DNA of 64,000 nt. Origin: Pontimonas salivibrio. GTDB taxonomy: Bacteria; Actinomycetota; Actinomycetes; Actinomycetales; Microbacteriaceae. The DNA is taken from NCBI RefSeq assembly GCF_002950575.1, contig NZ_CP026923.1, forward strand, positions 930,001-994,000, read 5' to 3'. Numbering within the stretch: position 1 is the stretch's first letter; each line of letters begins with the position of its first letter. The notes below the pieces were generated by a model. It worked only from the letters and a program-made list of their open reading frames with translations, searched no databases and was not told where the DNA came from. Below are positions 2,830-55,166 of this stretch, in pieces. A program made the translations under genes and the position numbers.

Positions 2830-2834
2830 AGACT
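2829..2834 (+). promoter_or_regulatory. -10 box (TAGACT) for a leaderless pgsA mRNA
   Basis: TAGACT ends 6 nt before GTG 2841, which puts the expected transcription start on the start codon. No usable Shine-Dalgarno sequence is present. Confidence 0.5.
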
Positions 2835-2840
2835 GAAGGT

Positions 2841-3464
2841 GTGCCAAATCGCGCTCGGGTGAGCAACCGGATTGTGACGATACCCAACCTCGTCAGCCTG
2901 GCTCGCCTCGCAGCGATTCCGGTCTTTTTGTCGCTTGTGTGGCGCGGTGATGACCTTATAGGGCTAATCGTGCTTGTTGTTGCCGTGTCGACCGATTTTG
3001 TCGACGGCGCACTCGCAAGGCGATTGGGCCAAGTGTCAGTGCTCGGGCAACTGCTGGACCCTTTAGCAGATCGGCTGTTCATTGCCGCCGTTGTGGTGGC
3101 GTTGACCATTCGCGACGTGGTGCCTCTGTGGGTTGTGCTGCTCGTGCTGGGACGTGATGTCCTTCTCGGGCTTGGCACGCTCTTCTTTAGACGCTTTGGG
3201 GTGGGTGTCTTACCGGTGAAGTGGATGGGTAAGTGGGCCACCTTCGCATTATTGTTCTCGCTGCCGCTGTTTCTCCTGGTAAATGTTTTTGAGGCACTCG
3301 CAATGTACGTCGCTCCCTTTGCGTGGGCTATAGCGTTTGCCGGCGTGGTCTTGTATTGGTGGGCAGGAATTTTGTATCTCCTGGACGCTGTGGGGATTGC
3401 CCGTACAGCGCGTGCAAGAGCCACCGGCGAGTCCGGTACGCTAGCACCCACGACGGAAGGCTAG
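2841..3464 (+). CDS. pgsA: CDP-alcohol phosphatidyltransferase (PgsA-like)
   Basis: A 207-residue integral membrane enzyme of the CDP-alcohol phosphatidyltransferase family, which replaces CMP on CDP-diacylglycerol with an alcohol such as glycerol-3-phosphate. The full metal-binding signature D-x2-DG-x2-AR-x8-G-x3-D-x3-D is present near residues 52-77 (DFVDGALARR to LLDPLAD), with hydrophobic segments on both sides. The next gene is garA, and mycobacterial pgsA2 also lies close to garA, which supports phosphatidylglycerophosphate synthase or a close relative. A cardiolipin-synthase-type role cannot be excluded. Start is GTG with a probable leaderless transcript. Confidence 0.82.
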   Translation: MPNRARVSNRIVTIPNLVSLARLAAIPVFLSLVWRGDDLIGLIVLVVAVSTDFVDGALARRLGQVSVLGQLLDPLADRLFIAAVVVALTIRDVVPLWVVLLVLGRDVLLGLGTLFFRRFGVGVLPVKWMGKWATFALLFSLPLFLLVNVFEALAMYVAPFAWAIAFAGVVLYWWAGILYLLDAVGIARTARARATGESGTLAPTTEG

Positions 3465-3467
3465 GCC

Positions 3468-3929
3468 ATGGTGGATCATTCTGAGGATGGGCAGGTTCCC
3501 TCCAATGACACCTCCAGCACTCAGCGTTTTGGGCCAGATTTTGAGTCGAAAATTCAGGCGTTAGAGAACGGCCTCAGTCTGGAAGAACAAGAAATTGTTC
3601 ACGCACTGCCGGCGGAATCTGCGCTGCTGATTGTGCGCCGGGGCCCTGGGGTGGGGGCGCGCTTCCTGCTGGACCAAGACCGAACAGTGGCCGGACGCCA
3701 CCCCGAAGCCGACATTTTCCTAGACGATGTCACCGTGTCGAGGCGCCACGCAGAATTTGTGCGTCACGGCAACTCATTTGAGGTGCGCGATATGGGTTCC
3801 CTCAACGGTACGTATTTTGATGGTGTCCTCATTGATCAAGCACTGTTGCATGAGGGTGCTGAAGTGCAGGTGGGGAAGTTTCGTATGACGTTTTATCCGT
3901 CTTCTCACAAGTCTGAGAGGGGCGCATAG
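3468..3929 (+). CDS. garA: FHA-domain regulator GarA/OdhI
   Basis: A 153-residue forkhead-associated protein. GarA/OdhI binds and inhibits 2-oxoglutarate dehydrogenase and binds glutamate dehydrogenase, and phosphorylation of an N-terminal threonine by a Pkn kinase releases the targets. The FHA core is textbook: AGRHPEADIFLDD, VSRRHAEF and GSLNGTYFDG between about residues 75 and 115. The N-terminal phospho-motif differs from the mycobacterial ETTSVFR: the aligned stretch reads TSSTQRF, leaving single separated threonines. It lies 3 bp after pgsA and directly before the FtsR-type gene, the conserved actinobacterial order. Confidence 0.92.
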   Translation: MVDHSEDGQVPSNDTSSTQRFGPDFESKIQALENGLSLEEQEIVHALPAESALLIVRRGPGVGARFLLDQDRTVAGRHPEADIFLDDVTVSRRHAEFVRHGNSFEVRDMGSLNGTYFDGVLIDQALLHEGAEVQVGKFRMTFYPSSHKSERGA

Positions 3930-4628
3930 GTGGCGGGGGCAACTTCGGCCACTCCAACGCCGTCGGGTCGTAATCTTTTATCAATTGGTCAAGTCTTACA
4001 GCGGCTCAACCCAGAATTTCCCGACCTTTCGCCGTCGAAGCTACGGTTTCTGGAAGATCGGGACCTCGTGAAGCCTGGGCGCACTCCTGCTGGCTATCGC
4101 ACTTACTCTCACGCCGATGTGGATCGTCTTCGGTTCATCTTGGGCCTTCAGCGAGATCATTACTTACCCTTGAAGGTCATCAAGTCATATTTGGATGAGT
4201 TGGATGCGGGTGGCTCTGCTGAGCTTCCCGGCGTCACGCGGGTCGTTCAACCGGTGGCGATAGGCCGCGTGAACGCTCTGGAGCGTGATGAGCTTATTTC
4301 CCGCAGCGGTGCCAGTAAGGATCTTGTTGACGAGGCAATTGCTCAGGGCCTGATTACGCCTGGCCCGCTTTTTGACCAGCACCAGTTGCGCGTCGTGGAG
4401 TCACTTGTTCAGGCTGAAAGCTTTGGTGTGACCCCCCGGCACTTGAGGGGCATGAGTCAGGCAGTCGCCCGTGAGGTCGACTTGGTATGCCACGCGGTAG
4501 ACGCAAAGAGCCAGAAGGACGCCCGAGCAAAACGTTCCAAACAGGAACTTCAACGGGAACTTGCCGACGTGGTCCAGCAGTTGCGCGTGGCCCTGGTGCG
4601 CCAAGCCTTGGAGGGGTTAGAGTCATAA
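3930..4628 (+). CDS. ftsR: MerR-family regulator FtsR (Rv1828 type)
   Basis: A 232-residue MerR regulator with an N-terminal winged-helix domain (about 16-92, including SKLRFLEDRDLVKPGRTPAG and a following DVDRL helix) and a C-terminal domain in place of a metal-binding one. It matches Rv1828 and the corynebacterial activator of ftsZ called FtsR in length, domain plan and position after garA. The GTG start follows the garA stop with no gap. A candidate FtsR site stands upstream of ftsZ in this window (33724-33740). In mycobacteria a DUF151 nuclease gene separates the two MerR genes; here it is missing. Confidence 0.85.
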   Translation: MAGATSATPTPSGRNLLSIGQVLQRLNPEFPDLSPSKLRFLEDRDLVKPGRTPAGYRTYSHADVDRLRFILGLQRDHYLPLKVIKSYLDELDAGGSAELPGVTRVVQPVAIGRVNALERDELISRSGASKDLVDEAIAQGLITPGPLFDQHQLRVVESLVQAESFGVTPRHLRGMSQAVAREVDLVCHAVDAKSQKDARAKRSKQELQRELADVVQQLRVALVRQALEGLES

Positions 4629-4639
4629 CAGGTGTAGCC

Positions 4640-4666
4640 GCCGACACGCCCGAGCGGGCTGTCGGC
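4640..4666 (+). terminator. Hairpin after ftsR
   Basis: GCCGACA (4640-4646) pairs perfectly with TGTCGGC (4660-4666), and an inner GCCC/GGGC stem (4648-4651 with 4656-4659) closes a GAGC loop. No T-run follows. It probably ends the pgsA-garA-ftsR unit. Confidence 0.5.
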
Positions 4667-4753
4667 TTCCAATCCCACTGTGGGTGGCATCGGTGGGTAC
4701 AGTGGGGGAGCTAGCCTAACTGTAAACTAGAAGATGAAGGTAGAGCGGTAGTG

Positions 4754-20589: not shown

Positions 20590-20622
20590 TAAGCACCAAT
20601 CGGGCCGGCGAAAGGGGGCGTG

Positions 20623-21054
20623 ATGTTACTTGGTACGTACGCGCCCAAGCTCGACGACAAAGGGCGGCTCATTTTGCCGGCCAAGTTCCGCGAAGAGCTC
20701 TCCCGCGGTGTTGTACTGACGCGAGGTCAAGAACGGTGTCTCTACGTATTCCCCGAAGAAGAATTCGCCCGCCAAGTGGAGCGAATCCGGGAAGCGCCTT
20801 TGACGAGCAAATCTGGTCGTGACTTCCTTCGACTGTTCCTCTCCGGGGCGTCGGATGAAATTCCCGACAAGCAGTCTCGAGTGACGATTCCTCCGGCTCT
20901 GCGCGAATACGCCGGCCTCAACCGGGAGCTCACCGTGATTGGCGCCGGAACCCGCGCGGAGATTTGGGATCACGGGGCTTGGGAGACCTATTACTCCGAA
21001 AAAGAACAGGGCTTCTCCGACACCGAGGAGGAGGTGATTCCAGGACTCTTCTGA
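20623..21054 (+). CDS. mraZ: Transcriptional regulator MraZ
   Basis: A 143-residue AbrB-like regulator that represses the dcw operon. Both swapped-hairpin motifs are intact: [22 protein letters not shown] at the start and [18 protein letters not shown] near 85-102. ATG 20623 is preferred over GTG 20620 because it gives the standard N-terminus. Four repeat operators lie 34-68 bp upstream. An unusually large inverted repeat separates it from rsmH. Confidence 0.95.
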
Positions 21055-21055
21055 T

Positions 21056-21134
21056 CTGTCGGTTTGACTCCCTCCCGTAGGCCCTGGAACACCTTCCCCG
21101 GTCCCAGGTTCACGGAGGGGAATCAAACCGACAG
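21056..21134 (+). repeat. 79-bp inverted repeat between mraZ and rsmH
   Basis: CTGTCGGTTTGA (21056-21067) is a perfect 12-bp match to the complement of 21123-21134. With one mismatch and bulges the stem extends through TCCC/GGGA pairs. Inside it sit a second stem (CCTGG 21083-21087 with CCAGG 21104-21108) and an inner ACC/GGT. It starts two bases after the mraZ stop. It could fold as an attenuator, an mRNA processing site or a partial terminator; no T-run follows. Confidence 0.8.
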
Positions 21135-21152
21135 GCCAGGCCCTTGACAATC

Positions 21153-22115
21153 ATGATGGCCATACCTATCCACACCCCGGTTGCACTGGATCGCACAGTG
21201 GAGCTTCTGGCACCCGCGCTCAACGGGCCGGAGCCGCTGATGGTTGATTTGACCCTCGGGCTAGCAGGCCACGCGGAAGCCATTTTGGACGCAGTCCCGG
21301 ATGTCCAACTGCTCGGCATGGACCGCGATACAGAGGCTCTGGCGATTGCCCGCGAGCGGCTGGCTCGCTTCGGATCCCGCGTGACCACCGTTCACGCCCG
21401 CTACGACGAGCTTCCCACAGCGTTGGAAAGCCATTACCCCGGTCGGTGTGTCGATGCGGTGCTTCTTGATGCTGGGGTGTCGTCTCTTCAGCTTGACCGC
21501 TCGGAGCGTGGGTTTAGTTACCTCACTGACGCTGCCTTGGACATGCGGATGAACCCGGACGATGAGACAACTGCGGCCGACCTGGTGAACACTCTCTCCC
21601 GCGGTGAGCTGCAGACCCTGTTTCAACGTTTTGGCGACGAGCCGCTGGCCGCCCGGTACGCAAAAGCAATTGTGACCGCCCGGGAAGAGAGCCCGCTCCG
21701 CACGACGCTGCAATTGGTCGACGTCATCGACCGCGCGACTCTCGGCGGTCACCCTCGCGGTGGTCACAACGCCAAGAGGGTGTTTCAGGCGCTGCGTATC
21801 GCGGTCAACCATGAACTTGAGAGTCTGGCCGCCGCCCTTCCCGCCGCGCTCGATGCGCTGTGTGTTGGTGGACGAATCGTGGTGTTGTCCTATCAATCGG
21901 GCGAAGACCGTGTGGTGAAACACGACATTGACGCGCGGACGCGCAGCCACGCGCCCCTTGACCTTCCGGTGATTCCTGAATCAGACCAGCCGACATTTCG
22001 TTGGTTGGTCAAATCCCCTGAAGGCCCCCTGCCAGAAGAAGCCGAAAGCAACCCGCGAAGCCGATCCCTTCGACTTCGTGCTGCCGAGAAAATCCGTAAA
22101 GGACATGTTCGATGA
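21153..22115 (+). CDS. rsmH: 16S rRNA (cytosine-1402-N4)-methyltransferase RsmH, diverged motifs
   Basis: Methylates C1402 of 16S rRNA in the ribosomal P-site region. About 320 residues. Family landmarks are clear: HTPVALDRTVELL, GMDRDTEAL, GVSSLQLDRSERGFSY, LDMRMNP and FQALRIAVNHELE. Several usually fixed positions differ: the SAM loop GMGGHS reads GLAGHA, DLGVSS reads DAGVSS, HPA before the FQALR motif reads HNA, and HSLEDR near the C-terminus reads QSGEDR. It may still be active, but this many changes in one copy is unusual. TTGACA at 21144-21149 resembles a -35 box. The start could be 21153 or 21156. Overlaps the next gene by 4 bp. Confidence 0.85.
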   Translation: MMAIPIHTPVALDRTVELLAPALNGPEPLMVDLTLGLAGHAEAILDAVPDVQLLGMDRDTEALAIARERLARFGSRVTTVHARYDELPTALESHYPGRCVDAVLLDAGVSSLQLDRSERGFSYLTDAALDMRMNPDDETTAADLVNTLSRGELQTLFQRFGDEPLAARYAKAIVTAREESPLRTTLQLVDVIDRATLGGHPRGGHNAKRVFQALRIAVNHELESLAAALPAALDALCVGGRIVVLSYQSGEDRVVKHDIDARTRSHAPLDLPVIPESDQPTFRWLVKSPEGPLPEEAESNPRSRSLRLRAAEKIRKGHVR

Positions 22116-22756
22116 GTGCTTTGACTGCCCCCGCTGCAGCACCACCGCGGTTAAAGAGCCGCCCTGGCCTGAAAGCTGTGAGCCGACCGGCGCCGGCAGC
22201 CCCACCGAAACTTCGATACGTCCTCGGCACCCTGCTGGGAATCTTTGCGGTATTGATGGGCCAACTCGGACTGTCAATCGCTTTAGGAAGCGGTGCCTAC
22301 GAGATTCGTGATCTTGAGCGGCAGCTTGCTGAGAGAAACCGCGATTTAAGTATTGTCAGCGAGGAGATCGGGACCATGCAAGATCCTCAGACACTCGCTC
22401 AACTAGCGGTCACCCTGGGTATGGTCGACAACGCTGACCCGGCATACCTGCGACTGTCTGACTCCCAAGTGATCGGCTCAGGAGATCCTGCACGTGTTGG
22501 GGGCACCTCGCTTGTGAGCGTGGTGCCTGGCGACTCCAACACCGCCGCTCTTGCCACGGCTCAGGTGGTGTCCCAACAAGCCCCCACTCAGGGTGAGTCA
22601 CTGCCAGGTTTTGCGGCCATGGATGGGGACACTGGAAAAGTTGACGTGCCCGGAGACAGTCTCACAGGAGTAGAAGCCTTGGTTCCCCACACACCCGCGG
22701 TCGCGGCAAACCAGCCACCTCTTGGTGGCGACTTGCCCGCTCCCGTCACTCGCTGA
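22112..22756 (+). CDS. FtsL-like septum protein
   Basis: A 214-residue single-pass protein in the usual ftsL position between rsmH and ftsI. It has a basic proline-rich cytoplasmic arm (1-35), one membrane helix (about 37-60), a short coiled-coil (about 66-85, IRDLERQLAERNRDLSIVSE) and a long low-complexity outer tail. FtsL-type proteins link FtsQ/FtsB to FtsW/FtsI. Sequence identity within the family is low, so the call rests on topology and position. The ATG overlaps the rsmH stop by 4 bp. Confidence 0.72.
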   Translation: MSALTAPAAAPPRLKSRPGLKAVSRPAPAAPPKLRYVLGTLLGIFAVLMGQLGLSIALGSGAYEIRDLERQLAERNRDLSIVSEEIGTMQDPQTLAQLAVTLGMVDNADPAYLRLSDSQVIGSGDPARVGGTSLVSVVPGDSNTAALATAQVVSQQAPTQGESLPGFAAMDGDTGKVDVPGDSLTGVEALVPHTPAVAANQPPLGGDLPAPVTR

Positions 22757-22764
22757 AGAACACG

Positions 22765-24510
22765 ATGAGACCGGCGGGCGCGACGACGGCACGGCGTATG
22801 GGAGCGGTGTCTCTCATCGTGGTAGTCACGGTCGGGGCGTTCTTCGTGCGTCTCGTCGACATTCAAGTTGTTCGAGCAGCGGAGCTCACGAGCGAGTCGA
22901 CTCAATTCCGGACACAGTCTGCGACTCTGTGGGCAGAGCGCGGGCAAATCGTTGACCGAGCAGGACAAGCGCTCGCCCACAATGCTGACCGCTATGACGT
23001 TACCGTGTCGCCCATGCACGTTGCCGATTTTCGACGGGACGGTCAGACCGTGACCGTCATGGCCGCACTCGGTGAAATCGAATCCATTACAGGAACCCCC
23101 GTCGCCCAAATGTGGGCGAGTGTGTCAGCGGATCCGGATTCGAACTTTGCCTACCTCAGTAAAGAGGCCACTACGACCCAATACCGCGCGCTCGTCGATT
23201 TAGATATCCCTTGGATGTATTTCGAGCGCAACCCCGAGCGGTTTTATCCCTTCGGTTCTGTTGCGGGCAATCTCACCGGGATGATGGGCACGGATGGCCC
23301 CCTCGAGGGCGTCGAGTTAAAATGGGACCAATGCTTGCGCGCTGAACACGGGTCGCTTCGCTATCAACGGGGTGCTGATTCGGTGAAGCTTCCCGGCACG
23401 ATGGAGGTCACGCAGGAAGCCTTCGATGGGGGAAACGCGGTTCTCACTGTCGATAGCGACCTACAGTGGTTCGTCCTCCAGCAGCTTGCCCGCTACGGAC
23501 AAAACCTTGGTGCTCAAAGCGGTTCGGCCATGGTTGTTGAGGTGAAGACGGGCGATGTTGTCGCAGCGGCCGATTGGCCCACCTACGACCCCAACAACTT
23601 TGAGGACGCGCCACAGTCGCACCTTCGTGCCGCTGGCTTCAGTTCCACTTTTGAGCCGGGCTCAACAATGAAGACGATGACCATGGCGGCGCTTCTCGAT
23701 CAAGGCCTAACGTTTTCCGAAGAGGCACACAATGTCCCCGCCACTTGGGAGCTCCCCGGCGGGCGCTACATTAGAAACTCCTCTGGGGCAGCGGCCGGCA
23801 ATCTCACGACTGCCGGCATACTGAGTCATTCCTCGAACACCGGAATCGTTGACTTAGCGCAGAGGATGGACCTCGAAACCCTTAATCGCTATTACCAACT
23901 CTTCGGTTTTGGCGAGATGACGAGCGTTGAGTTTTTGGGGGAGCAGCCGGGGTACCTTCCTGATCCCGATACGGTCGACTCGATTACTCGTCATACCCAA
24001 ACGTTCGGCCAAGGCCTGTCGACGACGACCGCCCAAATGGCCGGTGCGTATCAAGCTATTGCCAATAAAGGTGAGCGAATCCCGCTTCGGCTCGTGAGCG
24101 GCTGTGAACAGCCCGACGGCGAGTTTGTGCCGGCCCCCAGGCGCGAGAGTGTGCGGGTTGTCTCGGAGTCCACGGCACGAGAAACGCTGCGGATCTTAGA
24201 AACGGTTCCCGAGAGCGGAACTCTGCAGACTCGAGTGAATGTTCCCGGGTACCGCGTTGCGGCCAAGACGGGAACAGCCGAAATTGCCGAAAATGGCGAG
24301 TACGGTGACGAACGAATGATTTCCATCGCCGGAATGGTTCCCGCAGATGACCCGAAATACGTGGTGGTGGTCGCATTTGTCAAACCCCAGACCAACCGCT
24401 TTTCTTACGCGGCCGCCCCCGCCTTCGACGCGATTATCACCCAAGTCGTGAAGCACTTCCGGGTGCCACCGTCGACCCCTGCCGGTGGTCTTCCCCCACT
24501 AACCTGGTAG
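22765..24510 (+). CDS. ftsI: Septal transpeptidase FtsI (PBP3/PbpB)
   Basis: A class B penicillin-binding protein that cross-links septal peptidoglycan. 581 residues: membrane anchor near 12-30, dimerisation domain starting at ERGQIVDRAG, and the transpeptidase domain with all catalytic motifs, S300-x-x-K303 (STMK), S356-S-N358 and K501-T-G. So it should be an active, penicillin-sensitive enzyme. This contrasts with the decayed ligase genes downstream. Eight bases separate it from the ftsL-like gene and 31 bases from murE, where GAGGAGG provides a strong ribosome site. Confidence 0.95.
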   Translation: MRPAGATTARRMGAVSLIVVVTVGAFFVRLVDIQVVRAAELTSESTQFRTQSATLWAERGQIVDRAGQALAHNADRYDVTVSPMHVADFRRDGQTVTVMAALGEIESITGTPVAQMWASVSADPDSNFAYLSKEATTTQYRALVDLDIPWMYFERNPERFYPFGSVAGNLTGMMGTDGPLEGVELKWDQCLRAEHGSLRYQRGADSVKLPGTMEVTQEAFDGGNAVLTVDSDLQWFVLQQLARYGQNLGAQSGSAMVVEVKTGDVVAAADWPTYDPNNFEDAPQSHLRAAGFSSTFEPGSTMKTMTMAALLDQGLTFSEEAHNVPATWELPGGRYIRNSSGAAAGNLTTAGILSHSSNTGIVDLAQRMDLETLNRYYQLFGFGEMTSVEFLGEQPGYLPDPDTVDSITRHTQTFGQGLSTTTAQMAGAYQAIANKGERIPLRLVSGCEQPDGEFVPAPRRESVRVVSESTARETLRILETVPESGTLQTRVNVPGYRVAAKTGTAEIAENGEYGDERMISIAGMVPADDPKYVVVVAFVKPQTNRFSYAAAPAFDAIITQVVKHFRVPPSTPAGGLPPLTW

Positions 24511-24541
24511 GCACGCCCGCGTCATCGAGGAGGTCAACGCC

Positions 24542-26098
24542 GTGAGCCAAGCGAGCCCGCGACCGACCACCAGCACCCCGAAGGCTCTTGCCGATCTCGC
24601 GGACGTTTTCTCCTGGGAATGGCTTCACCAACCCGGCCTGACGCGCGTATCCGGTGTCGCTCTTGCCAGTGATGCGGTGTGTGAAGGAGACCTCTTCGTT
24701 GCACTGTCCGGCTCCACCCGGCACGGCGCGGAGTTTGCCGAGGGGGCCATCGCGGCCGGGGCGGTGGCCTTACTCACCGACCCTCAAGGCGCCGCGTTGC
24801 TGAGCGGTGTGTCAACTGATTTTCCGATCGCGGTTCACCCTGAACCCCGATCAGAACTAGGCCTGCTGTCCCAACGCATTTACGACCCGGGTGTGTCACT
24901 GCCCGATGTATTTTCAGTCACTGGAACAAACGGCAAAACCTCTGTGGTGTTTTTCCTGGATGCCATTGCCCGCGCACTACATGTGCCTTCGGCGTTTTCC
25001 AACACCCACGAACGTCGAATTGGTGACGAGAGCGTCAAGACCCCTCTCACGACCCCAGAAGCACCCGAGCTCCAGGCGTTACTTGCTCTTGCCGCCGAGC
25101 GAGGTGTGTCCGTAATGGCCATCGAGGCTAGCGCACAAGCGATCCAGCGCCAGCGGTTAACGGGAATCATCTCCCGGGTTGCAGGCTTCACGAATCTCAG
25201 CCACGACCATCTCGAAGATTACGGTGACATGGAGTCCTACTTCGAGACAAAGCGCCAGCTTTTCCAACCCAGGCTCAGCCAGCAGGCAGTGATCTCTTTG
25301 GAATCCGAATGGGGAAGAAAAATGCTGGAGGGCTGCGGGGTTCCCGCGGTAAGTGTTGGCCAGCCAGACCAAAATCCGACCTGGAGCGTGGAAGTTCACG
25401 GAGTCGACGGGGCCGAAACTGTATTCGCTCTCTCGGGACCCGAGGGCACCCTGTCGAGCAGTGTTCGGGCGGTCGGCGACTATATGGTGAGAAACGCAGC
25501 CCTCGCGTTAGTGATGTTCATCCAAGCCGGCTACACGGTGGATGCGCTGGAAAAGGCGGTGGGATTAGCGCGCGGCGGAATTGAACTGATTGTCCCGGGC
25601 CGGTTGGAAAAAGTATCCAGGACTTCCCCCATTGAGGTGTTTGTCGACGCGGGACGAAGTCCTGACGCCTACCAAAAGACTTTGGAAACCCTCGCGAACC
25701 AGTCCAAGGGAAAAATGATCGTGATATGTGGCACCTCTGGTAATCGCGATCGAACAAAGCGATCGGCTATGGGCAAGATTGCCGCTCGATTCGCTGACTA
25801 CCTCATCGTCGCCGACGATGATCCGCGCAAGGAAGACCCCGCACAAATTCGCGCAGACCTCCTGGAAGGCGTGAAAATGACCGACACCCCCTACGAAGAA
25901 ATCCCCTCCCAGGAAGAGGCCATCGCCCGGGCCGTAACGATCGCCAAGCCGGGCGATACCGTTGTGTGGATGGGGCCTGGCTCTCAGTCTTACCGCGACG
26001 TCGGCGGAGTCCGAGAGCCGTTCTCTGCTCGCACAGAGGCGCTGAGAGCTCTTGAACGATCGGGCTATCTGGAGAGCAATCAGGAGGAACCATCGTGA
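24542..26098 (+). CDS. MurE-like Mur ligase with altered substrate motifs
   Basis: 518 residues in the murE position. MurE adds the third stem amino acid to UDP-MurNAc-dipeptide. Kept: the P-loop G128-TNGKT, the TTPE motif, the carbamylated-lysine motif YFETK237RQLF, SHDHLEDYG, and PGRLEKV. Changed: the invariant VDYAHTPD reads VDAGRSPD (368-375), FGCGGDRD reads CGTSGNRD (396-403), DNPR reads DDPR (426-429), the SSHAL motif reads SAQAI, and the C-terminal GKGHE reads GPGSQ (478-482). The last three zones shape the amino-acid pocket, so it should not use meso-diaminopimelate in the standard way. It could be a ligase with another substrate, or a weakened or inactive one. GTG start with GAGGAGG upstream. 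Confidence 0.8.
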   Translation: MSQASPRPTTSTPKALADLADVFSWEWLHQPGLTRVSGVALASDAVCEGDLFVALSGSTRHGAEFAEGAIAAGAVALLTDPQGAALLSGVSTDFPIAVHPEPRSELGLLSQRIYDPGVSLPDVFSVTGTNGKTSVVFFLDAIARALHVPSAFSNTHERRIGDESVKTPLTTPEAPELQALLALAAERGVSVMAIEASAQAIQRQRLTGIISRVAGFTNLSHDHLEDYGDMESYFETKRQLFQPRLSQQAVISLESEWGRKMLEGCGVPAVSVGQPDQNPTWSVEVHGVDGAETVFALSGPEGTLSSSVRAVGDYMVRNAALALVMFIQAGYTVDALEKAVGLARGGIELIVPGRLEKVSRTSPIEVFVDAGRSPDAYQKTLETLANQSKGKMIVICGTSGNRDRTKRSAMGKIAARFADYLIVADDDPRKEDPAQIRADLLEGVKMTDTPYEEIPSQEEAIARAVTIAKPGDTVVWMGPGSQSYRDVGGVREPFSARTEALRALERSGYLESNQEEPS

Positions 26099-26727
26099 CC
26101 TGGAGAGTGGACGCCATTACCCGATGGGGATCGCAGTGTGTGGATGAGGAAGGTGAAGCCCTCACGTTAGGGTTAATTGACCCCAATGACCCTGCCGCGC
26201 TCATCAGCCGCCAACCCGTCATCGACTTATTGGCCCAGTCAGAGGGTGGCCTCGATCAGACTGCTGTGCGGGGTGTTGCGCAAAGTGCGCACCTGGTCGA
26301 AGTCTTCGAGTTTGATTCGGGGGCGACGTGTTGGATGGACTGGACTGAATCCCCACATGCTGATGATCTTGTCTCCGTCGTAAAAAAAGCGTCAGCTGCG
26401 GTGCGTGACTCTGGCCGCCTTCTGGTGGTCGCCGGTCTGGTGGCGGTAGGTGCCGAGGACGACTATGACTCGTTACCGGCTCTGGGCGCTGCCATGATTC
26501 GACTGCGAGTGGACCAGTGGCTTGGTGTGGGCGTTGAAGCCAAAGCCTTAGCGACCCAGGTGGGTCTAGAAGGTTCTTGGGATGGCGAGTCACTGTGGTT
26601 GGAGAATGCCGCCACAGCGTACGATTACCTGCGTGGTTGGCCCAATGAGAATGATCTCGTCCTCATTACCGGGCACCGTTTTGGCGAGTTGCCGGGCGTG
26701 TTAGAACTGATGGGGGTGACTCGGTGA
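26095..26727 (+). CDS. MurF C-terminal domain only, no ATPase domain (pseudoenzyme)
   Basis: 210 residues, less than half of a normal MurF (about 450-480), in the murF position. The segment [16 protein letters not shown], followed by [21 protein letters not shown] and [14 protein letters not shown], aligns with the end of MurF, and the region 55-130 with the MurF stretch around the DxYNANP motif, here [11 protein letters not shown]. There is no P-loop, no TTP motif and no carbamylated lysine, so it cannot ligate D-Ala-D-Ala alone. The reading frame is clean, GTG overlaps the murE stop by 4 bp and its own stop overlaps the mraY start, which argues for a maintained protein. Function is unknown; a scaffold or regulatory role is possible. 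Confidence 0.75.
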
Positions 26728-27821
26728 GAGTTCTTTTGCTCTCAGGAGCACTGTCTCTGCTTTTCACCCTCGTACTCACCCCGGTCTTTGTTCGTGGCTT
26801 CCAACGTCTTGGTTGGGGACAATTCATCCGTCAAGACGGACCCCAAACCCACTTTGTGAAAAGGGGAACGCCCACGATGGGCGGGATCATCATCCTGCTG
26901 GGAATCGTGTTTGGGTATTTCGTCGCGCACCTCATCGCCGGCGATGTTCCCAGCTATTCCAGTGTGCTCGTCATCGCGATCATGCTGGGATTGGGGGCGG
27001 TAGGTTTTCTGGACGATTTTTCCAAGATTCGTCAGCAGCAATCGTTGGGTCTTTCTCCGCGGGCAAAAGTGGTCGGACAAATCATCGTGGCCACGGCGTT
27101 CTCGGCCTTGGCCATTTCGTTTCCCGACCAGAATGGTGAGACCCCTGCCTCCCTGGCGGTCTCATTTATCCGAGATATCGACTGGCTCACCTTCGCCGCG
27201 TTTGGCACGATCGGAAGCTATATCGCCTTCGCCATTTGGACCAGTTTGATTGTGGTGAGCACTTCTAATGCGGTGAACCTCACAGATGGCCTGGACGGAT
27301 TGGCGGCAGGTTCATCCATTTTGGTCTTTGGCGCTTACGTCTTGATCAGCTTTTGGCAATTCAACCAGTCGTGTTTCTCTGCAAGTCTTGACTCCGAAGT
27401 GGCTTACAAGTGTTACGAAGTGCGCGACCCCTTAGACCTTGCCGCCGTGGCGACGGCCATCTTGGCAAGCCTCATTGGGTTCCTGTGGTGGAACACCTCG
27501 CCGGCCAAAGTGTTCATGGGTGACACCGGTTCACTTGCGCTCGGTGGTGGGGTTGCGGCAATGGCGATCTTTACCCGCACCGAATTGCTACTACCCCTCA
27601 TTGCCGGTCTGTTTCTGATTCTCACGGCGTCAGTAGTCCTGCAGCGCACCTACTTCAAACTGACAAAAGGTCGGCGCATTTTCTATTCCAGTCCTCTCCA
27701 TCACCACTATGAAATCAAAGGCTGGGCGGAAGTGACCATTGTGGTGCGCTTTTGGCTCATCGCCGGTTTCCTTGCTTTTGCCGGTGCGGGAATCTTCTAC
27801 CTGGAGTGGCTTGGTCGTTAA
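26724..27821 (+). CDS. mraY: Phospho-N-acetylmuramoyl-pentapeptide transferase MraY
   Basis: Transfers phospho-MurNAc-pentapeptide to undecaprenyl phosphate, making lipid I. 365 residues with about ten membrane helices and all family motifs: KRGTPTMGG, the catalytic [34 protein letters not shown], and the muraymycin-site loop [13 protein letters not shown]. So the membrane step appears fully functional and needs a UDP-MurNAc-peptide substrate, although the neighbouring ligases look unable to complete one. GTG start overlaps the murF-like stop; its stop overlaps the murD-like start. Confidence 0.95.
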
Positions 27822-28858
27822 TGTTCGCTGTGCTTGATTCTGGTTTTGCGCCTGAGACTCTTACCAGTTGGTCAGCACCTTGGGCGGGCTTAAAAGTCTT
27901 GGTGGTGGGCCTGGGTGAGGGTGGTTTCGCCCTAGCGGACACTGTGGCCGAGCTCGGGGCGCACACCCATGTTGTCCAGCTGGGCGACGATGCTGACCGG
28001 CTCACCATCCTGGGTGTGTTGGGCGTGAGTGTTCATACGGTCGGATCAGATGCTGAGATTGCCGATTTGGCCAAAGAGCTTGCACCTGACCTGGTGCTTC
28101 TGTCCCCGGATTGGGTCCCCGACCGGGAAATCGAATCTGCGCTCTGGGAAAGCGATCTCATCGTCTGGTCTGACGTGGAATTCTCCTGGAGGGTGGCCGA
28201 TAAAACGGGCACACGCCCCGACATTGTCTTGTGTGCTGGTGAGCAGAAAGGGTCCTGGGTGGCCGATGTGGCGCAACGATTTTTGCTCCACGCTTCACAG
28301 CGCGCGGCCCGAGGAGGCCATGGCGCCCCGTCAGTGCTTGATGCCCTTCGACACCCAGACGGCGTTGACGTTGTTCTCTGGTCGCTTTCGGATCGACAGT
28401 TGTGGCGGATGGGCGCTGATGAGTCGAGCCTGCGCAGGCCACGAGTCAGTGTCTATTTCGCGCCAGGCGAGGACACGGATGTCAGCACAATCGAGGCGGT
28501 CTACACCCACACGGTTGAGTCCTGCATCTATAAGCCCGGCACCCAGAGCGAGACCGCCCTTCACGCGGCGTCGGTGGTGGAGGGGGCCCGAGCGATTGGC
28601 ATTGTGGGGGACACCCCGGGAATGAGCGATCTGGGCCGCGTCGGTGAAGTGATTTGTGATCGTGCTTTTTTGCCCGATCGAAAAGACCGAGCATTGGAGT
28701 TGTGCACGGTCGACGAGCTGGTGGGCGCGGGTTTTTCCACGCCCGAGTCGGTTGAGGTTGCGATAGCTGCGCTGGGCATTGCGCGCGCGTTAGACGTGCC
28801 ACCGGAATTACTCGGCGGGGCTCTTAAAGACGGTGGTGAGTGGCCGGAACATAAATAG
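27821..28858 (+). CDS. MurD-like protein without P-loop and C-terminal domain (pseudoenzyme)
   Basis: 345 residues in the murD position; true MurD is about 450-500. The N-terminal UDP-binding domain is recognisable (LTSWSAPWAGLKVLVVGLG, ADTVAELGA, WSDVEFSWRVADKTGTRPD). In the central domain the MurD framework remains (SVLDALRHPDGVDVV, VVEGARAIG, DRAFLPDRKDRALEL, TVDEL), but GTNGKTT is replaced by CAGEQKGS (138-145), the ELSSFQL segment reads SLSDRQL, and NxxxDHLDWH is gone. The C-terminal ligase domain is absent; the protein ends just after the LGGAL helix. It cannot bind ATP in the family manner or add D-glutamate. The frame is intact and coupled to mraY, so it is probably expressed. Confidence 0.8.
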   Translation: MFAVLDSGFAPETLTSWSAPWAGLKVLVVGLGEGGFALADTVAELGAHTHVVQLGDDADRLTILGVLGVSVHTVGSDAEIADLAKELAPDLVLLSPDWVPDREIESALWESDLIVWSDVEFSWRVADKTGTRPDIVLCAGEQKGSWVADVAQRFLLHASQRAARGGHGAPSVLDALRHPDGVDVVLWSLSDRQLWRMGADESSLRRPRVSVYFAPGEDTDVSTIEAVYTHTVESCIYKPGTQSETALHAASVVEGARAIGIVGDTPGMSDLGRVGEVICDRAFLPDRKDRALELCTVDELVGAGFSTPESVEVAIAALGIARALDVPPELLGGALKDGGEWPEHK

Positions 28859-28954
28859 CGGACACACCCGCTACCCTCACCCGTCGACTGCCCTCTTCGC
28901 CCGAGACTAGGGGTGGTCTATCTGGCTGGGTTCTCATCGATGGAGGTGTAGTCA

Positions 28955-30184
28955 ATGGCCTCTGCTGCGGACACAGTCACTGGCACTCGCTCCCCTTCGG
29001 CAAGCCCCCGCGCTCTGGTATCCGTGCGGCGCCTATTTCGTGCAGAAACCCCCCAATTTGTCGTGATGGTTGCGATGGTCCTTTTTCTTGTCCTTTTCGG
29101 GCTGGTCATGGTGCTTTCCTCTTCGTTTGTCACGGCACAAACTGGGGGTCAAGGATTCCTTGGGGTGTTCACCCGGCAAGTAATTTGGGCGATGCTCGGC
29201 CTCCCGCTGATGTTCATTCTCTCCACCTGGCGCCCCCAAGCTCTTCGAGCACTGGCGCCCACCTTGCTACTCATTGGTTTGATTCTGCAGGGCCTCGTGG
29301 TGTTCACCCCCTTGGGTATCACCTCAGGAGGAAACACCAACTGGCTATCGATTGGCGGACTCCAGGGTCAGCCCTCTGAGTTTTTAAAACTTGCCCTAAT
29401 CGTCTGGATGGCACACATTTTGGCCGACCGGGTTGACTACATTCGTAGCCCTCAGGCGCTGAGGCGCCCGTTGATTCAGGGTGTGGTCTTGGCACTCAGT
29501 TTCGTCCTTTTCGGTCAGGACTTGGGGACGATGGGGGTGATGGCCCTGATTGTCCTCGGTGTGTTCTTCGTGGCCGGGGTTCGGTTGTCGCTGTTGGGTG
29601 CTGTCGTGGGCGCCACGGCTGGTGTGGCGGGCGTGATGGCTTTGTTTGCCCCCTACCGCCTGGAGCGTGTCACGGTGTGGCTCTCCGGTTGTACTGAAGA
29701 CGAATTCCTCTACCAGTGCTGGCAGCCCATGCAGGGGACGATGGCCCTGGGCTCTGGGGGAGTATTGGGGGTGGGTTTGGGTAACTCACGCGCGAAATGG
29801 TCGTGGTTACCCGAGGCAGATACCGACTATATTTTCGCGGTGATCGGCGAAGAGTTGGGGCTCGTGGGAGCAAGCCTGGTGATTATCAGTTTCACGGTGT
29901 TAGCCATTGCCATGGTCCGCTTAGTTCAACGAAGCCCTGACCCTTTTGCCCGACTGGTCACTGCGGGCGTGATGATTTGGATTGTGGGTCAGGCTCTTGT
30001 CAACATTGCCGTGGTCTTGGAGTATCTTCCGGTGCTCGGGGTTCCACTACCATTCATCTCTGTCGGAGGTTCAGCCCTGCTCTCGACGCTGTTGGGCATC
30101 GGCGTGGTGATGGCGGTGAATCGCAACAGTCGTGTCACTCCGGTGTGGCAACCCGGTGGTTCTATGGAAGCACCGGCACGGTGA
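28955..30184 (+). CDS. ftsW: Septal peptidoglycan glycosyltransferase FtsW
   Basis: SEDS-family polymerase that extends glycan strands at the septum with FtsI. 409 residues, about ten membrane helices. Key motifs are kept: GGNTNWLSIGGLQGQPSEFLK, the loop with the catalytic aspartate GQDLGT, GVGLGNSRAKWSWLPEADTDYIFAVIGEELG, and LPVLGVPLPFISVGGSAL. GGAGGTG stands before the ATG. A 96-bp gap separates it from the murD-like gene, where a normal MurD C-terminal domain would otherwise be encoded; I see no remnant of that domain in the gap. Confidence 0.94.
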   Translation: MASAADTVTGTRSPSASPRALVSVRRLFRAETPQFVVMVAMVLFLVLFGLVMVLSSSFVTAQTGGQGFLGVFTRQVIWAMLGLPLMFILSTWRPQALRALAPTLLLIGLILQGLVVFTPLGITSGGNTNWLSIGGLQGQPSEFLKLALIVWMAHILADRVDYIRSPQALRRPLIQGVVLALSFVLFGQDLGTMGVMALIVLGVFFVAGVRLSLLGAVVGATAGVAGVMALFAPYRLERVTVWLSGCTEDEFLYQCWQPMQGTMALGSGGVLGVGLGNSRAKWSWLPEADTDYIFAVIGEELGLVGASLVIISFTVLAIAMVRLVQRSPDPFARLVTAGVMIWIVGQALVNIAVVLEYLPVLGVPLPFISVGGSALLSTLLGIGVVMAVNRNSRVTPVWQPGGSMEAPAR

Positions 30185-31260
30185 TTACTATTGCCCTGAC
30201 CGGTGGTGGGACTGCCGGGCATATTTCTCCTCTTCTTGCAGTCGCTGAGCAGCTCGGCGGCAGTGCGCGGTGCGTGGTGATAGGCACTCTCGGGGGTCGT
30301 GAAGATGAGCTGGTGCCTCAAAGTGTTCCCATCATTTACCGCATTCCGAAGCTGCCCTTCCCGAGGAAAATCAATGGGGCGGCACTGGCGTTTCCGCTTC
30401 GTTGGGTAAAGGCCTTCTTGGCCGTCAGGCGGGCACTCAAACAGGCAGCGGTCGATGTTGTGGTGGGGTTTGGTGGGTATACGGCAGCCCCGGCCTACCT
30501 GGCTGCCTGGTCGCTTCGTATCCCTTTGGTCATTCACGAAGCGAACGCGATTCCGGGGCTTGCCAACCGCCTCGGAGCCAGACTTACCCACTGGGTAGGA
30601 GTGTGTTTTCCCGGCACACCGCTGCCCCACGCAGAGGTGGTGGGGATGCCTCTTCGCCGGCAGGTGCTCACCCTGGATCGTCTGGCGCTGGGCACTCAGG
30701 CGCGGAAACATTTTGGTTTGCGCCCCGGTACTCCTGTTCTATTAGTGACCGGGGGGTCTTCAGGTGCCCGAACCATCAACGAGACGCTCGATAGGGTCAC
30801 CGGAGACATTGTGGCGAAGGGCTGGCAGGTCCTGCACCTGCGCGGTCCTGGCCACGATGCACCAGACGCACCACCTACCGGGGTAGTGCAGGTTGCGTAT
30901 ACCAACCGGATGGACCTCGCGCTTGCTGCGGCCGACCTGGTAATTTCTCGAGCGGGTGCCAACACTGTGGCGGAGTTGGGCGTTGTGGGTCTTCCCGCCA
31001 TTTTTGTGCCGTACCACGTGGGAAACGGTGAACAGGAACACAACGCCGCCTTTGCGGTGTCAGCGGGTGCTGCCCTTCAGGTCAGTACGCCTGAGTTCAC
31101 CGCGGAATGGGTGCGCTCGGTGTTGTTACCACTGTTGGATGACCGTGAACGAATCGCGTCGATGGCGGCCGCGATGGAGCAGACCGCCAATCGAGACGGA
31201 GCGGAAATTGTTGCGCGCTGGGCCTTACAGGCTGGCGCTCGGAGAAAGGACGACAGCTGA
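30181..31260 (+). CDS. murG: UDP-GlcNAc transferase MurG
   Basis: Adds GlcNAc to lipid I, making lipid II at the inner membrane face. 359 residues. N-domain GGGTAGHISPLLAVAE binds lipid I; VVGFGGYTAAPAYLAAW, HEANAIPGLANRLG and GGSSGARTINE follow; the UDP-GlcNAc site ISRAGANTVAELGVVGLPAIFVPY and GNGEQEHNA completes the GT-B fold. All expected catalytic elements are present. GTG overlaps the ftsW stop by 4 bp, and the stop overlaps the murC start. Confidence 0.95.
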   Translation: MITIALTGGGTAGHISPLLAVAEQLGGSARCVVIGTLGGREDELVPQSVPIIYRIPKLPFPRKINGAALAFPLRWVKAFLAVRRALKQAAVDVVVGFGGYTAAPAYLAAWSLRIPLVIHEANAIPGLANRLGARLTHWVGVCFPGTPLPHAEVVGMPLRRQVLTLDRLALGTQARKHFGLRPGTPVLLVTGGSSGARTINETLDRVTGDIVAKGWQVLHLRGPGHDAPDAPPTGVVQVAYTNRMDLALAAADLVISRAGANTVAELGVVGLPAIFVPYHVGNGEQEHNAAFAVSAGAALQVSTPEFTAEWVRSVLLPLLDDRERIASMAAAMEQTANRDGAEIVARWALQAGARRKDDS

Positions 31261-32720
31261 TGTTGCGCCCGCGTGCTGATGGTTGGCTGCCCGACGAATT
31301 GGGTCGCGTTCACATGGTCGGAATTGGTGGCTCCGGAATGAGCGGTATTGCTCGGGTGTTGCACGAGCGCGGCCATATGGTCAGCGGCACCGACCGGGCC
31401 GCGTCAGAAGTTACCGAGTCGCTTGCCGCGAGTGGGATCACCGTGTTCATTGGTGAGGATTCGGGTTTTGTGGACCAGGCGGACACGGTGATATCTACCT
31501 ATGCGGTGCGTGACAATCATCCGGAAATGGTTCGAGCCCGCGAACGGGGCATCACTGTCCTGCACCGGGCAGACGCTCTACGCTTTATTGCCCGCGGTTT
31601 AGACACCATTGCGGTGGGAGGCTCGCACGGTAAAACCACCTCCACTGCGATTCTCGCGACCGCGATGGAACGCCTCGGCGAGGACATTACGGCGGTCAAC
31701 GGCGGAGTGATCAGCCAGTGGGGGGTGTCTGCCAGGGCGGGGAGTTCGTCGTGGTGTGTGCTGGAGGCTGATGAGTCGGATGCATCCTTCTTGATCTATC
31801 ACCCGCGCATCGCGCTGGTGACGAACGTTGCGGCAGACCATTTAGATTTTTACGGCTCTAGGGAAGCGGTCTTTGCTGCCTTTGATGAGTTTGTCCTAAG
31901 CGCCACCGACGCGGTGGTCTGTTTGGATGATGACGGCGCGAGGGCGTTGGTGGGACGCCTTGCCCCTCGGGAGGTCCTCACCTACGGGACCCACCCGGAC
32001 GCAGCACTCCGACTCAGTGACGTCACGGTGGCACCGTATGCCCGGGCAGTGGTGACTTTTGGCACCCAGAGTGCGTCTTTTGAGTTGGCTGTGCCCGGTG
32101 AGCTAAACGCCCTCAACGCCACCGGAGTAATCGGGGTTCTCCTCCTGGCAGGTTGGTCTCTTGACGACGCGGCGCGGGGTGTGTCTGGCTTTACCGGTGC
32201 CGATCGCCGTTTCCAATTCCACGGTGAGATCGGCGGAATCAGGGTATTCGACGATCACGCCCACCACCCCACTGAAGTGGCAACAGCGTTGGATATTGCT
32301 CAAACCGTTGCCGGTCAGGGTGAGGTGATTACGATGTTTCAGCCCCACCTGTTTAGTCGCACCCAGTTGATGTCTGCCGAGCTGGCAGAGGCCTTTCGAC
32401 ACGGAAGCGACCACACGATTTTTCTGGACATTTTTGGTTCCCGAGAGGACCCCATCGAGGGCGTCACGACTCAGATGATTCTGGATCGGTTGGGACCCGC
32501 GGTGTCTTACGACTTTGAGCCAGATTGGGATCGGGCAGTTGATCTGGCCGTTTCTCGAGCGCAGCCGGGAGACGTCATTGTGACGATGAGCACCGGCGAC
32601 CTGTATCAAATTGTGCCTCGGTTGCTCAAGCAGCTTCGGAAAGTACACGAACGGGCCGTTGACGTATTCGAAGACAACTCCGGCGACGAGGAAACCGGCC
32701 CGTCGGTGGTGGGCCAGTAG
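31260..32720 (+). CDS. murC: UDP-N-acetylmuramate ligase MurC, slightly diverged
   Basis: Attaches the first stem residue to UDP-MurNAc. 486 residues. The nucleotide motif HMVGIGGSGMSGIA, P-loop GSHGKTTS (121-128), EADESDASF (169-177), ADHLDFYG, and FQPHLFSRT are present, so activity is likely. Two motifs differ: DDYAHHP reads D331-DHAHHP, and the normal GAGD near the C-terminus reads STGD. Microbacteriaceae with group B peptidoglycan carry Gly in place of L-Ala at position 1, so altered amino-acid recognition is a possible reason; that is inference. Of the four ligase positions this is the best preserved. Confidence 0.88.
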   Translation: MLRPRADGWLPDELGRVHMVGIGGSGMSGIARVLHERGHMVSGTDRAASEVTESLAASGITVFIGEDSGFVDQADTVISTYAVRDNHPEMVRARERGITVLHRADALRFIARGLDTIAVGGSHGKTTSTAILATAMERLGEDITAVNGGVISQWGVSARAGSSSWCVLEADESDASFLIYHPRIALVTNVAADHLDFYGSREAVFAAFDEFVLSATDAVVCLDDDGARALVGRLAPREVLTYGTHPDAALRLSDVTVAPYARAVVTFGTQSASFELAVPGELNALNATGVIGVLLLAGWSLDDAARGVSGFTGADRRFQFHGEIGGIRVFDDHAHHPTEVATALDIAQTVAGQGEVITMFQPHLFSRTQLMSAELAEAFRHGSDHTIFLDIFGSREDPIEGVTTQMILDRLGPAVSYDFEPDWDRAVDLAVSRAQPGDVIVTMSTGDLYQIVPRLLKQLRKVHERAVDVFEDNSGDEETGPSVVGQ

Positions 32721-33628
32721 TGGCAGGTGGGGCCCCCAGGGGCACAGCTGTGAGGAAGGGTTCTGCATCAACATCCTCGGGCACGCGCGCCGAGCGTCAG
32801 GCCGCCCGGGAGCGAAAGAGAGCGGAACGCCGGGAATACCGGCGGTTCACCACGGCCACCCGTCAGCGACGCTTAGCCTTCACTGCGGGAATTGGTGGTG
32901 TGCTCCTTATTGCAGTACTTACCGTGATTGTGACGTCGTCGCCTCTGCTTGCCCTCAACACGGTGAGGGTCTTAGGTACTGAACGGCTCGCTACCGACAC
33001 CGTCGTGTCCGCTCTGGAGCCTCTGGGCGGTCAACAGTTGGCCCGGGTGAGCCCGGCGGATGTGGCAGGTTTACTCTCAGATCTTCCGCTTGTGCAATCG
33101 GTGGACACCCGTATTGAGCTTCCGAGCACTCTTGTGGTGAGCGTCGTGGAGCGTACACCCATCGGGGTGGTTCGAAGCCCTGGCGGGTTTGCCGTAGTGG
33201 ACCGTGCCGCAGTGGTGCTCTTTGAGTCTGAAGTGTTGCCTGTAGAGTTCCCCCTTATTTGTGTTCCTGCACGGCCCGAATCTCGTGGGTTTCAGGCCAT
33301 TGGTGAGGCGCTGGCGGTCATTCCTTCGGACGTGCTGTCGCGGATCGATCGAGTGAGTGCCTCGAGTGCGGATACGGTGGCGTTCACCTTGCGTGATTCG
33401 CCACATCGGGTGTTGTGGGGCAGTAGTGAACTTTCGAGGGAAAAAGCTCGTGTGTTACCCGCGGCCCTTCGGGCGGCGGGGGAGTTTGGTCCCCAGCTAA
33501 TTGACCTATCAACGCCTGACACTGTCGTGATTCGCGACATCGAATCGCCGTTTCCCACACCGACGCCGTTAGAGGAGCCGGTAGAAGGCAGCGACACTGT
33601 CACTCCCGGTGAGGTTCCTGCGGGGTAA
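32720..33628 (+). CDS. ftsQ: Cell-division protein FtsQ
   Basis: A bitopic divisome protein of 302 residues. A highly basic cytoplasmic arm (1-50, rich in RAERQAARERKRAERREYRR) precedes one membrane helix (about 52-73), then the POTRA domain (LALNTVRVLGTERLATDTVV to LPSTLVVSVVERTPIGVV) and the FtsQ beta domain. It recruits the FtsL/FtsB/FtsW/FtsI complex. The last residues are Thr/Pro/Glu-rich. GTG overlaps the murC stop by one base. Confidence 0.9.
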   Translation: MAGGAPRGTAVRKGSASTSSGTRAERQAARERKRAERREYRRFTTATRQRRLAFTAGIGGVLLIAVLTVIVTSSPLLALNTVRVLGTERLATDTVVSALEPLGGQQLARVSPADVAGLLSDLPLVQSVDTRIELPSTLVVSVVERTPIGVVRSPGGFAVVDRAAVVLFESEVLPVEFPLICVPARPESRGFQAIGEALAVIPSDVLSRIDRVSASSADTVAFTLRDSPHRVLWGSSELSREKARVLPAALRAAGEFGPQLIDLSTPDTVVIRDIESPFPTPTPLEEPVEGSDTVTPGEVPAG

Positions 33629-33723
33629 TAGTTCCGCTGGCACGACACGCCCTGCACCTCTCGGGCCGATACGCCCTGAGGCTCTAGCGTGGGAGACGTC
33701 CGAAAGTGAATAAAACTCTCATC

Positions 33724-33740
33724 TTAAAGTATAGGTTGAA
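33724..33740 (+). promoter_or_regulatory. Candidate FtsR operator upstream of ftsZ
   Basis: TTAAAGT (33724-33730), a 3-bp spacer, and GGTTGAA (33734-33740). The left arm matches exactly, and the right arm 4 of 7, the TTAAAGT-N3-ACTTTAA motif that I recall for corynebacterial FtsR on the ftsZ promoter. It lies 24 bp before the ftsZ start, overlapping probable promoter elements. Confidence 0.45.
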
Positions 33741-33763
33741 GGTTTTGTCGAGGGGGGTGCCGG

Positions 33764-34903
33764 GTGACCGGTCAACACAACTATCTCGCAGTAATCAAAG
33801 TCGTTGGAGTGGGCGGCGGTGGTGTCAATGCCGTGAACCGCATGATCGAGCGAGGCCTTCGAGGTGTCGAGTTCATCGCCATCAACACTGACGCCCAAGC
33901 GCTCTTGATGTCCGATGCTGACGTGAAGCTCGACATCGGGCGCGAACTGACCAGGGGCCTCGGCGCGGGCGCTGACCCAGAAATCGGTCGCCGGGCTGCC
34001 GAAGACCACGCGGAAGAAATTGAACAAGCTGTCACCGGAGCCAACATGGTCTTTGTCACCGCCGGCGAAGGCGGCGGAACCGGAACCGGTGGAGCACCGG
34101 TAGTCGCTCGCATCGCGAAAGCCACGGGCGCTCTCACCGTCGGGGTGGTCACCAAGCCCTTTAGTTTTGAAGGAAAACGCCGCCAAGCCCAAGCGGAAGT
34201 GGGTGTTGAAGCCCTTCGCGACGAAGTAGACACCCTGATCGTGGTTCCCAACGACCGACTTCTCGAATTGGGTGATCCCACCATCAGCATGATTCAAGCG
34301 TTTGAGACAGCTGACCACATTTTGTTGGCCGGTGTGCAGGGAATTACGGACCTGATCACCACCCCTGGTTTGTGGAATCTCGACTTTGCTGACGTCAAGT
34401 CGGTCATGCAAGATGCCGGCACCGCACTGATGGGAATCGGTGCATCCCGCGGCGCGGACCGAGCAATCAAAGCCGCCGAACTGGCAATCGCCTCGCCCCT
34501 CCTCGAGACAAGTATCGAAGGAGCTCAAGGTGTGCTGATTTCCATTCAGGGTGGGTCAAATCTTGGTCTCTACGAAATCAACGACGCCGCGAAGCTGGTC
34601 GAAGAAGCCGTGCACCCCGATGCCAACATTATTTTCGGTGCGGTAATCGATGACTCGCTAGGCGACGAAGTGCGCGTGACGGTGATTGCTGCAGGATTCG
34701 CCGAAAGTCAAAAACAAGTTCCTGTAGCGACACAGACCGTCCCGGCCGACAACAGTGTCGAATCGGACCCTCAATGGCTCATCGAATCCCATGCCGCCCC
34801 ACAGGTACCCGACGCGGATCGTCCTGAAAGGGAGCACACTCCCGTATTTGCGTCAGAAAACAGTGACGATCAAGACCTCGACGTCCCAGACTTTTTGCGC
34901 TAA
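33764..34903 (+). CDS. ftsZ: Cell-division GTPase FtsZ
   Basis: Tubulin-like protein that forms the Z-ring. 379 residues: [15 protein letters not shown] near the N-terminus, the tubulin signature [15 protein letters not shown] near 103-117, the T7 loop [10 protein letters not shown], a linker and the C-terminal peptide DLDVPDFLR that binds SepF. The GTG start follows a G-rich ribosome site. A 135-bp intergenic region upstream gives it its own promoter. There is no ftsA, as usual in actinobacteria. Confidence 0.96.
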
Positions 34904-55136: not shown

Positions 55137-55166
55137 CCGAATGTCTCCTTAGTCGAATCGAGAGGT

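Follow-up and report, generated by a model that had tools for sequence, protein, structure and literature searches.

In the dcw cluster of Pontimonas salivibrio, the genes at the MurF and MurD positions encode proteins that have lost catalysis; the enzymes have been replaced from elsewhere in the genome, yet the dcw copies persist under purifying selection, and of this much we are highly confident. Joined to a non-catalytic job for the retained domains, this explanation as a whole has, in our estimate, a probability of roughly 55%. P. salivibrio CL-TW6T is a marine bacterium of the Microbacteriaceae and has a small genome, and its peptidoglycan genes were described as mostly typical in its genome paper (PMC6106888). 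The genome is one contig of 1,760,810 bp, of which the window analysed here, a stretch of 64,000 nucleotides, covers bases 930,001-994,000. The dcw cluster lies at window positions 20620-34903 in the order mraZ, rsmH, ftsL, ftsI, murE, pF, mraY, pD, ftsW, murG, murC, ftsQ and ftsZ, where pF and pD denote the MurF and MurD remnants at the dcw MurF and MurD positions (Table 1). As the original prediction had it, the membrane and periplasmic steps of this cluster are intact: MraY, MurG, FtsW and FtsI, and likewise MurC and MurE, gave normal family scores in profile matches.

Table 1. Positions of dcw genes in the window, from ftsI to ftsQ.
Gene	Window positions	Strand	State
ftsI	22765..24510	+	intact
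murE	24542..26098	+	sole MurE of the genome; P-loop and carbamate Lys retained; VDYAHTP -> VDAGRSP, DDDPR
pF, pseudo-MurF, 210 aa	26095..26727	+	MurF domain 3 and domain 2 scrap; without domain 1 and P-loop
mraY	26724..27821	+	intact
pD, pseudo-MurD, 350 aa	27806..28858	+	MurD domains 1 and 2; without P-loop GTNGKT and domain 3
ftsW	28955..30184	+	intact
murG	30184..31260	+	intact
murC	31260..32720	+	intact ligase
ftsQ	32720..33628	+	

Profile searches and alignments agree with the earlier claim that the dcw MurF and MurD cannot be enzymes: neither can be an ATP-dependent ligase, as both gave only partial domain matches and both lack the P-loop. Against the Mur ligase C-terminal domain, pF gave only a sub-threshold match (E=0.017); pD had no Mur_ligase_M match and matched TIGR01087 only in its N-terminal part (E=7.5e-8). 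In alignments, pF consists of MurF domain 3 with a variable scrap of domain 2, domain 1 and the P-loop being missing, and pD is colinear with MurD of related genera across domains 1 and 2, except that its P-loop has given way to other residues, the DHxDWHGS...K segment has dropped out and nothing of domain 3 follows the hinge. Thus, although pF and pD share their position and domain homology with the canonical dcw MurF and MurD of Microbacteriaceae, pF is without domain 1, most of domain 2 and the P-loop that a catalytic MurF carries there, and pD is without the P-loop (GxxGKT), carbamate lysine and domain 3 of a catalytic MurD. AlphaFold2 modelled pD with a pLDDT of 87.5, its closest PDB entry being the MurD structure 3lk7 (E=3.6e-14); the pF model reached a pLDDT of 70 with a weak N-terminus and matched Mur ligases. 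The three properties expected of a pseudoenzyme, a kept fold, lost catalysis and purifying selection, are therefore all found in pD, and also in pF with a weaker fold. Across 16 species 48 columns are invariant in pD and 21 in pF.

MurE had also been predicted to be altered and decayed. The alteration is real, in that Pontimonas MurE, and it alone, has VDAGRS in place of VDYAHTP/VDFGHSP and DDDPR in place of DHHPR; decay was not borne out, since the P-loop (GTNGKTS) and the carbamate-lysine segment are intact and the genome has no other MurE. On these grounds we count MurE as working; by their sequences MurE and MurC probably are functional ligases, and a MurE that is altered yet dead is improbable. 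A general link between the MurE motif change and pF was considered and rejected, since the change is confined to Pontimonas. One possible meaning of the altered motifs is that another amino acid occupies position three of the stem peptide; homoserine has been reported missing from the peptidoglycan of P. salivibrio (PMC4156110).

A whole-genome search for Mur ligases located the complete enzymes that had been suspected elsewhere. Seven proteins with a Mur_ligase_M domain were found, namely MurE, MurC, FolC, MurT, a PgsB-like protein, a MurD-like protein beside MurL (MurD2) and a MurF-like protein beside Ddl (MurF2). All seven being accounted for, a second dcw set of ligases is rejected: the replacements are two small unlinked cassettes, not the duplicate dcw-like set first proposed, and nothing suggested that they serve a specific cell-cycle stage. 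The first cassette, murL-murD2, is on the minus strand at C1:1,480,262-1,483,070, and the second, hydrolase-murF2-ddl, runs from C1:538,430 onward (genome coordinates).

The MurL homologue matched NF041275 with E=4.2e-100 and 334 bits, short of the 700 bits at which this Xanthomonadales model sets its cut-off. As in other MurL-positive Microbacteriaceae loci, murD2 adjoins murL. Glutamate racemase, MurI, was not found in the P. salivibrio genome (PF01177, best E=0.08; TIGR00067, no match). MurD2 has no lysine in its counterpart of the DDSKATN motif, and in alignment it has equivalents of E197, R358, P433 and F435, all four residues that PMC8788868 gives as those for the L-Glu preference of MurD2. 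Because MurI is missing, MurL is present and MurD2 carries these residues, D-Glu is most likely produced by MurD2 and MurL on the nucleotide peptide instead of by MurD and MurI. The suggestion that the stem peptide is built in a new way is thus partly borne out, through the D-Glu step, where this route is predicted and MurI is missing.

In MurF2 the place of domain 1 is taken by hydrophobic membrane segments, some 160 residues long in all, after which come normal MurF domains 2 and 3. Its P-loop reads GSYGKT, a PDB MurF profile matches with E=3e-28, and the middle and C-terminal Mur ligase domains are present; of the features of a MurF, only the N-terminal UDP-binding domain 1 is lacking, membrane segments occupying about residues 1-160. 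We found no report of a MurF2 of this kind in bacteria in the open-access literature. In MurF2-positive Microbacteriaceae, the alpha/beta hydrolase, the membrane MurF2 and ddl form a conserved trio.

The remnants are conserved throughout Pontimonas. We found pF in 18/18 further genomes of the genus, and pD in every further genome whose locus spans the site; in two (G006 and G010) the contig ends before the pD site, and these stand outside the pD count. In one genome (G001) the N-terminal part of pD is out of frame, probably through an assembly break. MurL and MurF2 were each present in 17/18 other Pontimonas genomes; MurL occurred in 0/41 other genomes, and MurI scored above its family cut-off in no Pontimonas and in 39/41 other genomes. 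The remnants are retained at about 28-65% amino-acid identity across the genus. By the Nei-Gojobori method, whose estimates of synonymous distance cannot be relied on in genomes of high GC content, dN/dS in the closest pair (G004/G018) was 0.11 for pF and 0.09 for pD, compared with 0.11 for murE, 0.08 for murC and 0.06 for mraY. The strongest constraint in pD fell on the C-terminal half of domain 2 (0.03-0.10), domain 1 being looser. Similarly, domain 3 of pF, at about 0.10-0.23 in most pairs, was tighter than its N-terminal scrap; the pF core reached 0.49-0.60 in two high-GC pairs, and pF belongs with the dcw proteins that evolve faster. Where pairs were taken from several genera, the remnants gave about 0.1-0.2. 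Chance and sequencing or assembly error are excluded by the lack of frameshifts, the same short genes genus-wide and the purifying selection.

These values bear on a slow decay, in which murF and murD would be pseudogenes on their way to loss and too little time has elapsed. Catalytic residues are indeed missing from both remnants, and a gradation from intact to cut genes exists in other genomes (G223, G082, G285 and others), but the marks of a pseudogene, stops, frameshifts and a dN/dS near 1, are absent. The remnants examined had neither stop nor frameshift, apart from two cases: G001, where the assembly is probably broken, and a Microbacterium metagenome-assembled genome (MAG) with one TGA; they are retained throughout Pontimonas, and MurD cuts fall at one domain boundary. 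The dN/dS of about 0.1-0.2 in several genera largely refutes decay, and we regard it as very unlikely. Another possibility is that the reading frames are kept solely for translational coupling to mraY and ftsW, the proteins themselves being dispensable. In P. salivibrio, pF shares 4 nt with murE and 4 nt with mraY, and the 4-nt overlap with mraY is found in nearly all Pontimonas, as coupling would lead one to expect. However, the constraint acts at the amino-acid level while synonymous change is free, and specific folded domains are retained, not just any reading frame. Furthermore, dcw murD is wholly deleted in other clades that have MurL: in MurL-positive Mycolicibacterium, Gordonia and Xanthomonadales no MurD lies between mraY and ftsW, the gaps being mostly about 100-400 bp. 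Retention of the remnant is therefore not forced by gene order, and coupling as the sole cause is improbable, though a little less so than decay. The same deletions show that the role of the remnants is not universal.

The association of MurL with a degenerate dcw MurD recurs in the family. MurL was detected in 20 of 300 Microbacteriaceae genomes, spread over 8 of 85 genera. Outside Pontimonas, MurL-positive genomes were without MurI in 13/13 cases, and the MurL-negative genomes tested had it in 19/19. The dcw MurD was degenerate in 12 of these 13 genomes, 11 being cut after domain 2; in G082 it was full-length but motif-mutated, and in G223 apparently intact. All 42 MurL-negative genomes checked, of which 20 had been selected for an intact MurF and not for MurD, had an intact dcw MurD. 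In nearly all cases the cut ends at residues 340-345 of a 493-residue MurD, at the hinge between domains 2 and 3, and the same cut MurD was present in named MurL-positive Microbacterium species and in one Propionibacteriaceae MAG. MurL seems to have been acquired from at least three sources, judging by its clades: one with Pontimonas and most others, a second with Microbacterium, Canibacter and a Bifidobacteriaceae MAG, and a third near Mycobacteriales. Two species of one genus (code g6; G241 and G285) have MurL of different sources and separately cut dcw MurD genes at different stages of loss, that of G285 being truncated with its P-loop still there.

Reduced MurF genes recur as well. A scan for pF across the 300 Microbacteriaceae genomes revealed short frames in further genera, and we read 33 dcw loci for the state of MurF and MurD. 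MurF was cut to domain 3, with or without part of domain 2, in g95, g88, g58, g101 and g51, and also in G258/G153 (g63) and G186 (g105); it was intact in the remaining loci read, with a P-loop for example in G072 and G237, and in G169 the dcw MurF locus is at a contig end. MurF2 (E<1e-159) was found in all reduced-MurF genomes but one and in no intact-MurF genome (37 genomes). Conversely, 8/8 genomes chosen by MurF2 alone had a reduced dcw MurF, and domain 3 was retained in the reduced gene of every MurF2-positive genome examined. The exception, the Galbitalea-like G070, has domain 3 only at the dcw position and a soluble full-length MurF, not MurF2, on another contig; by its gene content it is a case in which the dcw MurF would have been lost to a different full-length MurF, domain 3 still being kept. 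One small genome stands apart: in G033 (0.9 Mb, Microbacteriaceae) the MurI, MurL and MurF domain 3 profiles were without a match, and a Mur-ligase-like frame is present. Our search of the open-access literature found no report of truncated MurF or MurD in Microbacteriaceae.

Since pF (domain 3) and pD (domains 1 and 2) are complementary in their domains, we considered whether they might form one three-domain ligase. This was rejected, as each remnant occurs without the other: pF accompanies an intact MurD in g95, g88, g58 and g63, and pD an intact MurF in g53 and g73. With the P-loop and carbamate lysine missing from pD as well, the chance of a split enzyme is close to negligible.

To count independent events we used a tree of 71 genomes built from seven dcw proteins and from dcw proteins only. 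The minimum numbers of changes were 8 for dead MurD, 9 for MurL, 5 for reduced MurF and 5 for MurF2, counts that are blind to gain versus loss and into which MAG gaps may bring noise. Among pairs lying on separate, supported branches, six of seven had MurL and dead MurD together and none showed the reverse (p=0.031); for MurF2 with reduced MurF the figure was 4-5/5, too few pairs for significance. These data strongly indicate several origins of both reductions within Microbacteriaceae, each reduction going with its own replacement.

Based on these results we propose the following model. On the evidence of gene content, UDP-MurNAc-pentapeptide would be built by the dcw-encoded MurC and MurE together with MurD2, MurL and MurF2, where MurD2 would add L-Glu, MurL would epimerise it to D-Glu, and MurF2 would act as a membrane-anchored D-Ala-D-Ala adding enzyme. 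After replacement, the dcw MurF shrank to domain 3 and the dcw MurD to domains 1 and 2, catalysis being lost and the genes kept. The remnants would then tie MurE (through pF) and the MraY/MurG/FtsW membrane machinery (through pD) into one complex. MurE is the likeliest partner of pF because pF always follows murE, mostly overlapping it, and because Gordonia alkaliphila has a fusion of MurE with MurF domain 3 (L333, reverse orientation, 2544-4730, a 728-aa frame); in this species MurD is missing between mraY and ftsW. For pD, the division and membrane machinery is the likeliest partner, because pD lies between mraY and ftsW and because contacts of MurD and other Mur proteins have been published: MurG binds MurD, MurE and MurF (PMC6420597), and M. 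tuberculosis Mur ligases contact FtsW, FtsQ, FtsZ, SepF and Wag31 and did not bind one another (PMC3605390; Fig. 5 images corrected in PMC10965061). A non-catalytic role of the dcw remnants, as the original prediction had proposed, is what we infer as the best remaining explanation, the strongest evidence coming from outside the window, where both reductions recur with the same replacements in other Microbacteriaceae. That the retained domains carry on some non-catalytic task which the original Mur proteins already had, as docking or scaffold surfaces, is a tentative reading, held at slightly less than even odds.

The main rival is a precursor sensor, in which pD, through its Rossmann-like domain 1, and pF would bind a precursor such as a UDP-MurNAc-peptide and exert feedback on MurE, MraY or MurC. 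In its favour, the MurD domain 1 fold and the GLGxxGF loop are largely retained in pD; the SPG loop, however, is not conserved (SPDW and APEW within the P. salivibrio group), and selection is looser on domain 1 than on the end of domain 2, which leaves a sensor unlikely, at perhaps half the odds of docking surfaces or somewhat less. A further, doubtful reading, less probable still than the sensor, follows from the domain plan of MurF2: as it has membrane segments where the UDP-binding domain 1 would be, its substrate might be a lipid-linked tripeptide, with D-Ala-D-Ala attached only once MraY has acted. MurF and MraY would thereby swap their usual places in the pathway, and the retained MurF domain 3 and MurD body would organise a tripeptide-based MurE-MraY-MurG complex.

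The MurD2/MurL pathway is already known from Xanthomonas oryzae and Micromonospora (PMC8788868), and P. salivibrio resembles those systems in having murL beside murD2, no MurI and the equivalent residues. The list of actinobacterial genera published there names no Microbacteriaceae, and we found in that review no account of what became of the dcw MurD after its replacement. The recurrent, domain-precise retention of replaced enzymes appears to be unreported in the open-access literature. Mur ligases have been proposed to form a multi-enzyme complex or to gather on a MurG scaffold, with contacts of a non-catalytic kind between MurE, MurF, MurD and MurG (Bordetella MurE-MurF fusion, Thermotoga; PMC6420597), and the Gordonia fusion resembles this; the partners there are active enzymes, whereas here only catalytically dead parts remain. 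So far the case for a structural role of cytoplasmic Mur ligases has been built largely on fusion proteins, co-localisation and binding assays. Repeated relocation of catalysis, with specific Mur domains selected in place, sets the structural role apart from the catalytic one and singles out MurF domain 3 and the end of MurD domain 2. The MurD2/MurL route, a proposed narrow-spectrum drug target, also reaches one more Actinomycetota family. Another Mur-ligase relative with an altered domain plan, MurT of the lipid II isoglutaminyl synthase MurT/GatD, is also present in P. salivibrio and differs from pF and pD in having kept its P-loop and in being catalytic. The MurT/GatD pair, at C1 ~904,851-906,700, is likely to amidate the D-Glu residue. 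The PgsB-like protein, of the poly-gamma-glutamate synthase family, is encoded at C1 ~52,883-56,335 beside a membrane protein resembling PgsC.
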